DNA of 58,129 nt from contig JACRLJ010000148.1 in assembly GCA_016215105.1 (NCBI GenBank), positions 1 through 58,129 of the forward strand, read 5' to 3'. The stretch is from Candidatus Hydrogenedentota bacterium (GTDB lineage Bacteria > Hydrogenedentota > Hydrogenedentia > Hydrogenedentales > SLHB01). This document shows, piece by piece, positions 152 through 6,692 of this stretch. Below the pieces are notes generated by a model that searched no databases, had not been told where the DNA came from, and saw only the letters and a program-made list of their open reading frames with translations. The number at the start of each line of letters is the position of its first letter. Position 1 is the first letter of the stretch. The position numbers and the translations under genes are program-made.

Positions 152-2464
152 TCAGAATCGTATCCCCGTGATCAGATGCAGTTTCCCGCTATGTCCCTGG
201 TCCGAATCCGGATTCAATGGGTATCCATAGTCGATACGAATGGGCCCAATCTTGGGCACGTCCACGCCGAAACCGACCCCGGCGCTGGTCTTGATGTCGC
301 CGAAATCGAAGTCGCTGGTATCGTCCCAAACGCCGCCCGCGTCAATGAACGTGTACAGACGGAACGTGTCGGTAAGCTTGTATTTGGCTTCCAGGTTGTC
401 CACAATCCGCAGTTCGCCGCCCACTGCGCTCTCCTTGCCCCAGAACAGGTACTCACGCTTCTTGGGGCCAATCGAATAGGTCCTGTACCCGCGTACTGTG
501 TTGGTGCCGCCGGCGAAGAAGCGATCGGAAAGCGGTACGAATTCAGAATCACCGTACGGACTGGCCCATCCCTCGCGCATGCGCAGCGAAAGGACCCACT
601 TCCTCTCCTTGCCCACCGACTTGTACCAGATTGAATCGTGTTCGATCTTTACAAATTCGTTGTCACCACCCAGCCCTGCGATCTGAATCTGCAAGTCATG
701 CTTCGAGCCGGTGGACGGATCTCTATTGCTGTCCGTGGTGTTGCGGTCAATACCCCAAATGTTGCTGACCGTCGTGCTCCCGCCCCGCTCCGAATAGAAG
801 GCGTTGTACACGTACCAGGGCAGATGGCTGGTGGTGTTGTCCTCATAGCGCAACGCCATCCGAACCGAGACATAGGGGGACAAAATCTTGCCAAAGCGCA
901 GTTGGCCGCCTTTGGTCTCCTCGGTATAGTTGACATCGCCCCGGTCCTTCACCTGCTCATTGAACAGGTCGGCGCCAACGGCAATCGGATTGCCCATAAA
1001 CTCCGGATCGGTGAAGCTCACGTTGTACTGATTGCGCTTCTCGCCGAGGCTCACTCGAGCGCTAAACTGCTGGCCTCCACCCGAAAACGAAGGCCAACTC
1101 GTGATGTCAAAGTTGTTGAGCTTCAGCTCGGCAAATCCGCTCATCTTTTCTTCGGTGCTGTACCCGGCGCCGAAATTGAAGTTGCCCGTCTTGCCCTCTT
1201 CGACGTTCACGAGCAAATTCGCGAAACGCTCGTCATCTTCGATGTTTTCCAGGGTCAGCCGAGTCTTCTCGTCATCGAAGAAGCGTGTGTTCTTCAATTG
1301 CCGTTCCGTTGCCTTGAGCTCGTTCCCGTCAAATCGATCGCCGGGAATCTGAGTCACCTGACGGCGCACTACATCGTCGCGGGTAACGGAATTGCCCGTA
1401 ATCTTGACTTCCTTGACATACTTGAGTTGCCCTTCGGTAACCTGATGGACAATATGCGTCGTCTTGGCGTCGCGGTCCAGCGTCACCTGGGGGGTGTCAA
1501 CAGCGTTGATATAGCCGCTGTCGCGGTAGCCTTTCGTGACCAGATTCGCGTCTTCGGTCACTTGGCCCGCATTGTGGACATCGCCCGCGTGGACCTTGAT
1601 GATGCGCTCGACCTCGTCCTTGTCGTATACCTCGTTCCCCGCCGCAACGACTTCCTGAACTGTGTACTCAGGACCTTCGGCGACGTGGATGACGATGTCC
1701 AGCCCCTTGCCGGACGGGGTATAGTTGAAATCGGTTCCGGTCACCGTGGCTTCGAGGCGTCCGTAATTTCCATACGTCTCGACAACTTTTTGCAGATCGG
1801 CTTCGAGTTTGGCCTCGTCATAGGCGCCCCCCAGGAACCACCAAGCCTGCTTAGTCTTCAGAACTTTCTTCAGTTTGCGCTCGGACAGGACCGAGTTGCC
1901 TTCAAAGGTGATATTATGGATACGCGCCTTCCGTCCTTCCACGATCGAGTAGGTGATTCGAACGCGCGATGGACCGACATCCTCGACAATGATCTCGACG
2001 GACGCGTTGGGGAACCCCTTCGACTGGTACAACTTCAACACCGCCTGGCGCTCGGTGTCATACCCCTCAGTGGTAAATGAATCGCCTTCCTTCCACTGAA
2101 TGGCGGACTTGATGGCGCGGGGCTTTAACTTCTTCGCGCCAATGATTTTGACTTCGTCGATAACCTTCTTCTCTTCGAAGATGTAAGTGATGTTGACCGC
2201 GCCGGCGGATTCCGCAGCGTCTACCTTGATGGTGGAGAAGAAACCCAGGTCATACAGGCGATGGATGTCGCGGGCAACCGCGCGCGCGTTATACGGTTGG
2301 CCGGTCTGGACCTCGAGCTTGGCGCGAATCATCTGCTCGCTGGCGCGGCTAAGCCCTTGCAGTTGAATCGTTCCAACCGATTTTCCGGTAAAGTCCTCAC
2401 CGTAGGCGGGACGAAGCGCCCCCCCTAGGAGGATGATAAGCAGGCAGACCCCGAGTGGTTTCAA
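152..2464 (-). CDS. bamA: Outer membrane protein assembly factor BamA (Omp85)
   Basis: Omp85-family outer membrane insertase that folds beta-barrel proteins into the outer membrane. The 770-residue protein begins with a signal peptide (Lys-Pro, a hydrophobic run, likely cleavage after Ala-Tyr-Gly near residue 22). Five POTRA-like repeats fill roughly residues 25-420, followed by a C-terminal barrel with the family VRGY loop motif (GGTNTVRGYRTY) and a terminal Phe (ITGIRF) fitting the beta-signal. Length is usual for BamA. The start is TTG, overlapping the clpC stop as TTGA. No in-frame ATG precedes the signal peptide, and GGAAGG sits 9 bases upstream. Co-transcription with clpC is odd, since bamA usually lies with lpx or skp genes. 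I see no neighbouring skp, though the window ends just downstream. Confidence 0.95.
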   Translation of the reverse strand: MKPLGVCLLIILLGGALRPAYGEDFTGKSVGTIQLQGLSRASEQMIRAKLEVQTGQPYNARAVARDIHRLYDLGFFSTIKVDAAESAGAVNITYIFEEKKVIDEVKIIGAKKLKPRAIKSAIQWKEGDSFTTEGYDTERQAVLKLYQSKGFPNASVEIIVEDVGPSRVRITYSIVEGRKARIHNITFEGNSVLSERKLKKVLKTKQAWWFLGGAYDEAKLEADLQKVVETYGNYGRLEATVTGTDFNYTPSGKGLDIVIHVAEGPEYTVQEVVAAGNEVYDKDEVERIIKVHAGDVHNAGQVTEDANLVTKGYRDSGYINAVDTPQVTLDRDAKTTHIVHQVTEGQLKYVKEVKITGNSVTRDDVVRRQVTQIPGDRFDGNELKATERQLKNTRFFDDEKTRLTLENIEDDERFANLLVNVEEGKTGNFNFGAGYSTEEKMSGFAELKLNNFDITSWPSFSGGGQQFSARVSLGEKRNQYNVSFTDPEFMGNPIAVGADLFNEQVKDRGDVNYTEETKGGQLRFGKILSPYVSVRMALRYEDNTTSHLPWYVYNAFYSERGGSTTVSNIWGIDRNTTDSNRDPSTGSKHDLQIQIAGLGGDNEFVKIEHDSIWYKSVGKERKWVLSLRMREGWASPYGDSEFVPLSDRFFAGGTNTVRGYRTYSIGPKKREYLFWGKESAVGGELRIVDNLEAKYKLTDTFRLYTFIDAGGVWDDTSDFDFGDIKTSAGVGFGVDVPKIGPIRIDYGYPLNPDSDQGHSGKLHLITGIRF

Positions 2465-4917
2465 GTGCTAACGCCTTCCGCAGCATGTACGGCTGGTTCA
2501 AAGACCAGCTTCTCTTCCTCGTCCGAGGGACGTACCTCGATCACCGTATCCGGGTCGAAACTCCCTCGCAGCAGCAACTCCGACAACGGATCTTCGATAT
2601 ACTGCTGAACCGCCCGCCGCAAGGGCCGCGCGCCGTACTGCTCGTCGCTGCCAACGCGGATGATGAACTCTTTGGCTTCATCGGACAGAACCAGATGAAT
2701 ACCCTTCTCGGCAACACGTTCTATCACTTCCCTGACTTGAATGTCAACCACCTGAACCAGCCGTTCGTGGTTTAACCGCTGAAATACAATCACCTCGTCT
2801 ACCCGGTTCATGAACTCCGGATTGAAGACCTTCTTGCATTCCTCCATCACCCGGCTTTTCATGTCCTTGTAGGACTGTTCCTCGGAATCCCGCTGGAACC
2901 CAACCTGCGTATTGCGGCCGATGCGGCGCGCGCCTATATTGCTGGTCATGACAATGACCGTATTGCGAAAATCGACTTTGCGCCCGGTCGAGTCCGTCAT
3001 GTGACCGTCCTCGAGCACCTGCAACAACACATTGAAGACATCCGGGTGGGCCTTCTCGATTTCATCGAAAAGCACGACTGAATAGGGGCGGCGGCGTACC
3101 TGTTCCGTGAGCTGTCCACCTTCGTTATACCCCACGTACCCCGGAGGCGCCCCGGCAAGCCTCGAAACCGCGAACTTCTCCATGTATTCGGACATGTCGA
3201 TGGTAATCAGGGACTCTTCGTTTCCGAACAGGAACGTGGCTAAACTCCTGGCGAGCAAGGTCTTCCCTACGCCTGTCGGTCCCAGAAACAGGAACGAGCC
3301 GACCGGACGCTTCGTGTTGCGAAGCCCCGAGCGGGATCGCTGAATGGCGCGGGTGATGGCGTCCAATGCGTCATCCTGCCCGACGACCGAATCGCGCAGC
3401 TCGTCGCGCATACGAAGCAGCCGCGCCGACTCCTTCTCTTCAAGCTTCGTGAGCGGAACACCGGTCCACTTGGACACAATGTGGGCAATGTCTTCCTCGG
3501 ACACGATGGTCTCCGCGGAATCGCGTTTCTTCTCCCAGTCTCGCTTGCGTTCGTCCAATTTCGCGATCAGCGTCCGCTCTTTGTCACGAAGACTCGCCGC
3601 GCGTTCGTATTCCTGACGGCGAATCGCCGCTTCCTTCTGCTGCGTGACGGTCTCGATCTCTTGTTCAATCTCCTTGAGTTCCGCCGGCCGCGTCGTGATC
3701 TGCAGACGCGCGCGGCTGCCCGCTTCATCAATGACGTCGACCGCTTTATCCGGGAGATACCGGTCGCTGATGTATTGATTGCTGAGCTTGGCCGCCGCGA
3801 CGATGGCCTCATCCGAGAACTTCACTCGATGGTGCGCCTCGTACTTGTCGCGCAGGCCCTTGATGATCTCGATGGTCTGCTCGACCGAAGGCGCCTCGAC
3901 CATGATGGTCTGGAACCGGCGCGCCAAGGCGGCGTCCTTCTCGATATGTTTGCGGTACTCATCCAGCGTCGTAGCGCCGATGCACTGCAGTTCGCCCCGG
4001 GCCAGCGAAGGCTTCAGCATATTTGCCGCGTCCACGGCCCCTTCGGCGGCGCCCGCGCCCACAATCGTGTGCAACTCGTCGATAAACAGGATGATATTGT
4101 CGGCGCGGCGAATCTCCTTCATGACCGACTTGAGCCGCTCTTCAAATTGGCCGCGGTACTTCGTGCCCGCGACCACGCCCGCAAGGTCAAGCGTCAGAAC
4201 GCGGCGGTGCAGGAGCAGGTCCGGAACGTCCCCGTTGACGATCGCCTGCGCGAGACCCTCGACGATAGCCGTCTTGCCCACGCCAGCTTCCCCAAGAAGC
4301 ACCGGGTTGTTCCTCGTCCGGCGGCTGAGAATCTGGATTACACGTTCGATCTCGCTCTCGCGCCCGCTTACCGGATCGAGCTTGCCCTCCTGGGCTAGCG
4401 CGGTAAGGTCGCGGCCAAAGGTGTCAAGCGCGGGCGTTTGCGTCTTCTTGCTCGTGGCGGCTTGCGCCCCGGTCTTGCTCTGGTCTCCCAGCAGCCGGAT
4501 CACCTCGGCCTGAATCCGGCCTAAGTCGACTTTCTGGTCCTGCAGCACCTTGGCGGCGATTCCTTCGCCTTCCTTAATCAACCCCAGCAGGATGTGCTCC
4601 GTGCCGATGTAATTGTGATTGAATCGGCGCGCCTCCTCGACGGCCAGTTCGAGCACCTTCTTCGCGCGCGGCGTGAAGGCAATTTCGTCGCCGGAAACGA
4701 CCGCGGTTCCGCGCTGAACCTGCTGCTCGATGTCGAGCGCCAGTTCCTCGATGTTTACCCCGAGGTTTTCCAGGGCGCGCGCCGCGATGCCGTCCGGCTC
4801 GCGGCACAACCCAAGCAGAATATGCTCCGTGCGCACATATTCGCTGCCCAGCCGCGTGGCCTCTTCGCGCGCCGCGCTGACAACATGCTTCGCACGCTCG
4901 GTAAATCGATCCCACAT
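2461..4917 (-). CDS. clpC: ATP-dependent Clp protease ATP-binding subunit ClpC
   Basis: Hsp100 unfoldase that feeds substrates to ClpP. The 818 residues show two Clp_N repeats (each with TEHILLG, residues about 31 and 107), AAA+ module 1 (GEAGVGKT), a UVR-type coiled middle domain (near 420-465), AAA+ module 2 (GPTGVGKT), and a D2 loop TQVGFQ matching the ClpP-docking VGF loop. ClpP is therefore the expected partner but is not in the window. The two Glu of the TEH repeats correspond to the B. subtilis ClpC residues that bind phosphoarginine (E32, E106), and both are kept even though the neighbouring McsB looks inactive. It starts with ATG, and its stop overlaps the bamA TTG start. A -10-like TATAAT lies about 110 bases upstream. 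Confidence 0.96.
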
Positions 4918-5129: not shown

Positions 5130-6173
5130 CTACGAGAAACGCGCCCGAAACAGATCAGCCCGTTCCATGCTAAGCGTGAGATCGTCGCACGCGTGGCCGG
5201 CCTTCATTTCCAAATGTCCGTTCTGAGAGGCCAACAGCAACTCGTTGACGCTCTGAATCGAGCACCCCTCGGCGTTCCCGGTGGCGACTCCCAGCCGGAT
5301 GGACGACAAAAGCGTCAGCGCCTCGCCAAACTCGAGTAGCCGCGCCCCGCGGGCAATACCCAACGCGCGGCCAACGCGATCCTGTATGCCCCGGGGCAAC
5401 TGTTGCAGCGTCGTCTCGCGCGCCGCCCGCTCGTCGGTCACCAGCTTATGCGCCAAGTGCTTTAAGTGAAATATCGTCTCATCTTCGGAACGCCCCAGCG
5501 TGGCTTGATTGGACAACACGTACAAATCACCCAGGGTCGTCCCGTTGGCCTTGAACAGCCCGTCAAACGTGTGGCGCTCGCGATTCATCCGGGATTCGAT
5601 ACCGCCGGCCGCATTGTTCATCGCCAACCCTGGGAAATGTCCAATCACGGCGGCCATCAAACCCGTTCCGACCTGACTGATGCTCGAGGTCAAATATCCC
5701 AACCGCTTGTCAAACGCATAGTCCAAAATCGCGGCCAGCGCATCATCAATCGCGTTCAAACGCAACCAGACTTCCGACGGCTGCATGCCCGAAGCCATGA
5801 CCTGAATCACAATATGATCACCGCCATTGATCATCACGCAGGCGCATTGATCTTCCGCGACGTACACACCCCGGGCGCCCCGCGACGCCGCAAGATCCGG
5901 CGCGGCCAGGCAGCGTTCCGACAGAAAACGCGCCTCTTTGCGCTCCAGACGCTGCATGGACAGATACTGCCCGCCGGAAAGGGTCGGCGCGCTATCCAAC
6001 GCGCCAAGAACCCGCTCTTCGATAGTGCGCCGCTCGTCCTCACTGCACCGGGCCGGGAACGGAAAATCCGCGAGGTTTCGCGCCAAAACCCCGTAGGTGT
6101 TGACGACGATTTCCGCGTCCGGGCCATCGCCCGTCAGCCACAGCGCGGATTTATCAAGCAAGGTCTCTACCAT
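5130..6173 (-). CDS. mcsB: McsB-like protein arginine kinase homologue, probable pseudokinase
   Basis: Phosphagen-kinase-fold homologue of McsB, which in Firmicutes phosphorylates arginines to tag proteins for ClpC. Family landmarks are clear (GPDAEIV, LARNL, NGGDHI, TSSISQVGTG, SNQATLGRSE, RLG), and 347 residues is normal. Compared with B. subtilis McsB recalled from memory, catalytic positions are changed throughout: SSRIRLARN is NTYGVLARN (residues 25-33), NEEDHIR is NGGDHIV (116-122), SCPTNVGTGLR is SSISQVGTGLM (163-173), and RGIYGEG is DGLFKAN (204-210). Phosphate-binding arginines, catalytic glutamates and the active-site cysteine are therefore gone. It starts 3 bases after the mcsA stop and precedes clpC. 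A structural adaptor role for ClpC is the simplest inference. Confidence 0.88.
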   Translation of the reverse strand: MVETLLDKSALWLTGDGPDAEIVVNTYGVLARNLADFPFPARCSEDERRTIEERVLGALDSAPTLSGGQYLSMQRLERKEARFLSERCLAAPDLAASRGARGVYVAEDQCACVMINGGDHIVIQVMASGMQPSEVWLRLNAIDDALAAILDYAFDKRLGYLTSSISQVGTGLMAAVIGHFPGLAMNNAAGGIESRMNRERHTFDGLFKANGTTLGDLYVLSNQATLGRSEDETIFHLKHLAHKLVTDERAARETTLQQLPRGIQDRVGRALGIARGARLLEFGEALTLLSSIRLGVATGNAEGCSIQSVNELLLASQNGHLEMKAGHACDDLTLSMERADLFRARFS

Positions 6174-6176
6174 GAA

Positions 6177-6692
6177 CTATTCCTGAGCTGTTCCGGCCAA
6201 ACCAAGGGACTCCTCGAGCGTCTTGATCTCGTCCCGCAATGACGCCGCCTCTTCGTAGTTCTCAAGTTTGAGCGAGCTGCGAAGGAGCGCGCGCTTCTTC
6301 TGCAAATCCGCCCGCGCCCGCGCCCGCGAATCCGTCTGCCGGGGAATTTTGCCCCGGTGAACGAGCGCGAAATGGAGACCGCGCAAGACGGGATCCAACT
6401 GCTCTCCAAACGATTCGTAGCAGACCGAACATCCGGCCCGGCCTCTATTCAGCACCTCAGTCATGTCGGTCCCGCAGCTCGGACACGCGCGTGATGGAAT
6501 CACCGTGTCGAACGACGGCGGCGAACTCATCGGCGACGGAATCGTTCCCGCCGCCAGCCCGAAGCCGGTGGACTCGTTTTGCTGATACCGAGCCAGACAG
6601 TCCGCGCACAGATGAACATCGGTGACTTTGCCGCTAACGACCTCGGCGTACCGCACCGTGGAAAGATTCTTATGACACATCTGGCACAACAT
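6177..6692 (-). CDS. mcsA: McsA-like zinc-finger/UVR adaptor protein
   Basis: Homologue of McsA, the activator of McsB and an adaptor of the ClpC system. The 171-residue protein has four CxxC pairs (Cys3/6, 29/32, about 70/73 and 87/90), suited to two zinc sites, and ends in a UvrB/UvrC-type motif (LKLENYEEAASLRDEIKTLE) that usually contacts ClpC or partner UVR domains. ATG start with AAGGAAG 6 bases upstream. It is first in the cluster, with mcsB beginning 3 bases after its stop. A ctsR-like repressor gene, usual in Firmicutes, is absent, which argues for different regulation. Confidence 0.9.
   Translation of the reverse strand: MLCQMCHKNLSTVRYAEVVSGKVTDVHLCADCLARYQQNESTGFGLAAGTIPSPMSSPPSFDTVIPSRACPSCGTDMTEVLNRGRAGCSVCYESFGEQLDPVLRGLHFALVHRGKIPRQTDSRARARADLQKKRALLRSSLKLENYEEAASLRDEIKTLEESLGLAGTAQE

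Follow-up and report, generated by a model that had tools for sequence, protein, structure and literature searches.

We analyzed a contig of 58,129 nucleotides from a Candidatus Hydrogenedentota bacterium (JACRLJ010000148.1 of assembly GCA_016215105.1), referred to below in its entirety as the window. McsB normally marks proteins for destruction by placing a phosphate on arginine, and ClpC is a protein-degrading machine. In the window, a McsB-like gene lies between genes for a McsA homologue and for ClpC, which confirms the mcsA-mcsB-clpC order reported in an initial annotation of this sequence. The features are listed below (McsB residues follow the numbering of B. subtilis McsB):

152..2464, minus strand: BamA-like Omp85 protein, overlapping clpC
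2461..4917, minus strand: intact ClpC, with two Clp_N repeats, two AAA modules, a UVR/M-domain and the equivalents of E32 and E106
5130..6173, minus strand: McsB-like protein with a dismantled active site (ORF of 347 aa)
5157..5174, minus strand: LSMERA, counterpart of the RDxxRA motif in the pArg pocket (substitutions R337L and D338S; R341 and A342 unchanged)
5322..5324, minus strand: Glu corresponding to E287 of B. subtilis (E277 of S. aureus, which pairs with R262), invariant in 61/61 sequences
5367..5369, minus strand: Arg corresponding to R272 of B. subtilis (R262 of S. aureus, in the salt bridge between McsBs), invariant in 61/61 sequences
5544..5564, minus strand: DGLFKAN, equivalent of RGIYGEG in the lid region (R207D, E212A), where most other families of the phylum have an insertion of 28-67 aa
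5655..5687, minus strand: SSISQVGTGLM, equivalent of SCPTNVGTGLR (C167S, R176M)
5694..5714, minus strand: FDKRLGY, equivalent of the McsA-contact loop, well conserved in the phylum
5808..5828, minus strand: NGGDHIV, equivalent of NEEDHIR (E121G, R125V; N119 and H123 kept)
6075..6101, minus strand: NTYGVLARN, counterpart of SSRIRLARN (substitutions R29Y and R31V; R34 unchanged)
6177..6692, minus strand: McsA homologue, with eight zinc-finger cysteines (four CxxC half-sites) and the UVR motif intact

The McsB-like protein matched PF00217 with 146 bits (cut-off 22.4) and scored 268 bits against NCBIfam NF002194 and 239 bits against NF053707, in both cases under the curated equivalog cut-off (385 and 500, respectively). 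The McsA homologue scored 111 bits against NF053706, also under the cut-off (210). The Geobacillus McsB 6fh1 aligned with the window protein (E=2.3e-53) over residues 9-344, which correspond to the phosphotransferase and dimerisation domains, with a single 2-residue gap far from the motifs. We further aligned the protein with three solved McsBs (6fh1, 8wtb, and 8gqd) and observed no gap within the SSRIRLARN segment. From the NEEDHIR segment onward, neither the catalytic motifs nor the stretches that separate them contain a gap. Since the catalytic motifs are free of gaps, an alternative alignment restoring the catalytic residues at shifted positions, which the initial annotation had named as the finding that would overturn its reading, was ruled out. 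A relative with 50% identity was found in a Hydrogenedentota MAG.

The substitutions described for the four catalytic motifs were all recovered exactly as stated. The eight residues R29, R31, E121, R125, C167, R176, R207, and E212 are all replaced, leaving R34 as the sole survivor among nine positions that are required for kinase activity or located in the active site. We take E121 and E212 to be the catalytic glutamates, based on what is known of phosphagen kinases and on the structure of Geobacillus McsB. The kinase activity of B. subtilis McsB depends on each of R29, R31, R34, R125, R176, R207, and R337, of which only R31 and R337 lie outside the active site, and the C167S protein is a kinase-inactive mutant (PMC7235348). 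The same study defined the RDxxRA motif of the pArg pocket (PMC7235348). Using as a reference the 73 positions that are invariant among six Firmicute McsBs, we found that the window protein retains only 1/9 catalytic or essential positions versus 43/64 of the non-catalytic ones (Fisher p=0.002). The same trend was observed across the phylum, where mean retention is 23% for catalytic sites and 63% for the other Firmicute-invariant positions (Mann-Whitney p=0.004), and random divergence was ruled out by these two comparisons. We found no second McsB or canonical paralogue in the window genome, where the gene is single copy (positive control: B. subtilis, 508 bits), and no relatives of the window McsB were found in viral contigs. 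An AlphaFold model built from a two-row alignment reached a pLDDT of 33 and was left unused.

We then examined the distribution of these substitutions in the phylum. The profile search identified one McsB-like gene per genome in 60/68 Hydrogenedentota genomes; two further genomes contain mcsB fragments at contig edges, and most of the remaining absences correspond to incomplete assemblies or contig ends. None of these proteins possesses a canonical McsB active site. The catalytic cysteine C167 is retained in 0/60 sequences, E212 in 2/61, R207 in 4/60, R31 in 4/58, R29 in 6/58, E121 in 11/60, R125 in 17/60, and R176 in 21/60. No member presents more than four of the eight key residues. These counts bear out the expectation of the initial annotation that the catalytic residues would be absent from close homologues, and they extend it to the entire phylum. 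The pArg pocket is also degraded: D338 is found in 0/60 sequences and R341 in 60/60, and R337 is retained in 2/60, although this residue is variable in Firmicutes as well (kept in 4/6 McsBs). Based on sequence data, these results indicate that the window McsB very likely lacks canonical arginine-kinase activity. In our incomplete search of the open-licence literature, no paper paired McsB with Hydrogenedent* and none described a McsB pseudokinase.

Despite the loss of catalytic residues, the gene is maintained. The dN/dS ratio of mcsB ranged from ~0.04 to 0.18 in close pairs with dS<1 (one pair reached 0.22 by NG86), which agrees with the value below 1 anticipated by the initial annotation. 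This indicates that mcsB is under strong purifying selection, for architecture rather than for catalysis. A tree of 66 sequences placed the McsBs of the phylum in a single clade relative to Firmicutes, and the state of C167 required one change. Catalysis was probably lost no later than the onset of the Hydrogenedentota radiation; because the outgroups consisted of Firmicutes only (plasmid records and PDB chains), the loss may predate the phylum. A lid-region insertion of 28-67 aa was found in 36 sequences that form one supported clade (100/97), which is consistent with a single gain. It is carried by families f2, f3, f5-f7, and f9-f11 as well as by loci L069 and L073, and contains a recurring Q-S/C-L/M-Y/L motif. 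The group to which the window protein belongs does not present this insertion. For reference, the lid of S. aureus McsB (199-209) corresponds to positions 209-219 of B. subtilis.

Ten positions are invariant (100%) among the McsBs of the phylum: R34, N119, H123, G162, L164, G172, E251, R272, E287, and R341. In S. aureus, McsB protomers are joined by a salt bridge of R262 with E277, and the zinc finger of McsA contacts the loop Y147-Y153 (PMC12467219). By alignment, these residues map to R272/E287 and to positions 157-163 of B. subtilis, respectively. Stimulation by McsA requires R255, R272, R281, and R341 in B. subtilis (PMC7235348), and these four arginines are found in 58/61, 61/61, 49/61, and 60/60 of the phylum sequences. 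McsA itself is conserved: its cysteines are invariant in the 57/57 or 58/58 sequences spanning each of them, and mcsA lies directly upstream of mcsB in 57/57 loci with upstream sequence. R96 of McsA, located in the kinase-stimulating loop of the zinc finger, is retained in 16/58 sequences only.

The association with clpC is looser. Full-length clpC adjoins mcsB downstream in 35/54 testable loci, spanning most families, and is not adjacent in the remaining 19/54, mostly in family f10. In the latter loci, clpC is mostly located elsewhere in the same genome, and inspection by eye revealed no common neighbour gene downstream of mcsB. The f10 loci in which the mcsA-mcsB pair stands apart from clpC are L089, L100, L104, L107, L109, L111, L115, and L117-L121. 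Genomes without mcsB mostly lack clpC too, a pattern that is confounded by assembly incompleteness. In two genomes of a single genus (G060 and G062), the gene following mcsB encodes a ClpC N-domain that carries a UVR-like tail but lacks the ATPase modules:

L114:1219-2055, minus strand: ATPase-less ClpC N-domain gene
L116:2206-3024, minus strand: ATPase-less ClpC N-domain gene

This arrangement hints at a link between McsB and the N-domain of ClpC. It recalls the NTD-only proteins of the mycobacterial ClpC2 type, from which the two proteins differ by their UVR-like tail and their position in the mcsAB operon.

The equivalents of the TEH glutamates E32 and E106 were found in 33/33 ClpC sequences of the phylum. 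The initial annotation was correct in reporting both glutamates, but they do not constitute evidence of a live phosphoarginine pathway. The chloroplast ClpC1 of Arabidopsis also carries both of them, and actinobacterial ClpC1 conserves the residues of the pArg sites while no mycobacterial McsB is known (PMC9604228). TEH glutamates are thus present in the ClpCs of organisms without McsB, are to be expected whether or not phosphoarginine occurs, and therefore do not show phosphoarginine binding.

Other components of the pathway, namely the pArg pocket of McsB, CtsR, and a YwlE-type phosphatase, were not found in the phylum sequences that we examined. CtsR was detected in 0/68 genomes of the phylum; the control set yielded CtsR in Lactococcus only and, therefore, the sensitivity of this search is not fully certain. 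A control genome named Bacillus subtilis gave no PF00217 or CtsR match, though the species has both, and this copy may lack or mask the operon. The YwlE-type loop C-x-G-N-T-C-R was not seen in 30 LMW phosphatase-like (LMWP) loci other than G000:C52, the LMWP gene of the window genome; their loops are all of the CLGNICRS/CMGNICRS or CTGNS/ACRS types. Matches to the YwlE pattern in the phylum did not exceed a reversed-pattern control.

Taken together, the loss of catalytic residues and the dN/dS ratios strongly support the pseudokinase reading of the initial annotation, which holds across the phylum. That annotation further proposed that the protein is retained for binding McsA and ClpC. The first part is supported indirectly by the invariant dimer and McsA-coupling residues, the contact loop, the McsA cysteines, and the universal adjacency of mcsA; binding to ClpC is a plausible inference, against which counts that roughly one in three testable loci has mcsAB separated from clpC. 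We consider that the protein is probably a pseudokinase of ancient origin, retained because McsA-McsB serves ClpC as an adaptor or regulator without the need for phosphorylation. If the absence of kinase activity is taken as given, the balance leans slightly toward an McsA-dependent adaptor or regulator of ClpC. The broader proposition that the whole phylum turned McsA-McsB arginine phosphorylation into a phosphorylation-free ClpC adaptor or regulator with a remodelled cleft appears evenly poised.

Under this scenario, the gene encodes a McsB orthologue that had lost catalysis by the time the phylum began to diversify. The sequences show that the ATP-phosphate-binding, arginine-binding, and transfer residues are gone throughout the phylum and that purifying selection has kept the fold core, the dimer salt bridge, the McsA-coupling residues, McsA, and ClpC. 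The McsA-McsB oligomer would dock on ClpC and either feed it substrates or toggle it on and off without arginine phosphorylation. The old active-site cleft and the lid, freed of catalytic constraint, have been remodelled, and one large clade carries the insertion of 28-67 aa. Experiments in B. subtilis are relevant to both sides of this model: kinase-dead McsB C167S keeps part of the contribution of McsB to MgsR degradation (PMC7235348), and the stimulation of ClpC by McsB requires kinase activity (PMC5506225). Given this requirement, a phosphorylation-free adaptor would represent a changed mechanism.

Alternatively, the pseudokinase might perform a function unrelated to ClpC, for instance by sensing small molecules, or by sensing redox state or metals together with McsA. 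In B. subtilis, the zinc-finger protein McsA acts as a redox sensor (PMC5506225). The adjacency of mcsA and mcsB is stricter than that of clpC, since family f10 and some further families have mcsAB separated from clpC, and new clade-specific conserved residues occur near the C-terminus, such as a His at position 323 (57/60). This possibility deserves consideration but is rather unlikely, as mcsB sits beside clpC in the majority of testable loci and most families, and the two genes tend to be missing from the same genomes, within the limits of assembly completeness. It is less probable still that the protein remains an enzyme, either a divergent phosphagen-type kinase or a protein performing another phosphotransfer or ligand binding with different residues in the same cleft. 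R34, N119, and H123 around the cleft are indeed invariant, some members keep R125, R176, or E121, and R176 is often replaced by Lys (23/60). However, the window protein lacks R29, R31, R125, R176, R207, the cysteine, and both glutamates, and no member of the phylum keeps E121 and E212 together. In addition, the lost positions vary freely (R207 is replaced by Q, E, N, C, T, D, or S), unlike what would be expected of a re-tooled active site. Finally, a decaying functionless relic or a sequencing or assembly artefact is very improbable: the log-identity ratio of mcsB to clpC is 3.8 in the phylum versus 1.6-1.7 in Firmicutes, about twice as fast, which weak constraint could also cause, but the ORF is intact in dozens of independent genomes, and the relic reading is ruled out by the low dN/dS (far under 1) and the columns invariant across the phylum, including the dimer residues, together with universal mcsA coupling.

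The adaptor or regulator that we favor can be compared with several known systems. Like the McsBs of B. subtilis, Geobacillus (6fh1), and S. aureus (8gqd), the phylum proteins present full-length homology over the phosphotransferase and dimerisation domains, the dimer salt-bridge residues, the McsA-contact loop, and the mcsA-mcsB-clpC order. In contrast to canonical McsB, they have lost the residues for catalysis and for the ATP phosphates as well as the pArg pocket (R337/D338), most families carry the lid insertion, and the CtsR and YwlE-type partners were not found. The window shares the mcsA-mcsB-clpC part of the ctsR-mcsA-mcsB-clpC stress operon, with no CtsR found. The catalytic Cys is replaced by Ser in the window protein as in the laboratory C167S McsB of B. 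subtilis, but the latter has one engineered change whereas the window lineage lost nearly all of these residues naturally and anciently. Adaptors of the MecA/YpbH type act on ClpC independently of phosphorylation. The likeness that we propose with these proteins, which have been named as ClpC adaptors (PMC5506225), consists of docking on ClpC and delivering substrates or activating it without chemistry; we claim no relation in sequence.

Whether McsB serves as a phosphorylation-independent adaptor of ClpC is still debated for B. subtilis (PMC5506225, PMC7235348) because the adaptor and kinase roles are hard to separate. A natural lineage devoid of the chemistry, yet possessing McsB, its activator McsA, and ClpC, makes this question directly testable. 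If our reading is true, no earlier lineage with a natural McsB pseudokinase would be known, and the adaptor function of McsB would be uncoupled here from its function as a kinase. It also implies that neither an annotation as "protein arginine kinase" nor conserved TEH glutamates in ClpC demonstrate phosphoarginine signalling.

Two additional features of the clpC region were observed. All 33/33 ClpC sequences of the phylum carry Arg instead of Gly at position 30 (G30R; window 4831-4833, residue 29 = B. subtilis position 30), whereas Gly is found in two aligned Firmicute ClpCs and in Arabidopsis ClpC1. This substitution adjoins pArg site 1, which reads VRTEH instead of GTEH. Lastly, a BamA-like Omp85 gene follows clpC in most of the loci where clpC lies beside mcsB. 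This gene order pairs cytoplasmic proteolysis with outer-membrane assembly, which is an odd combination.
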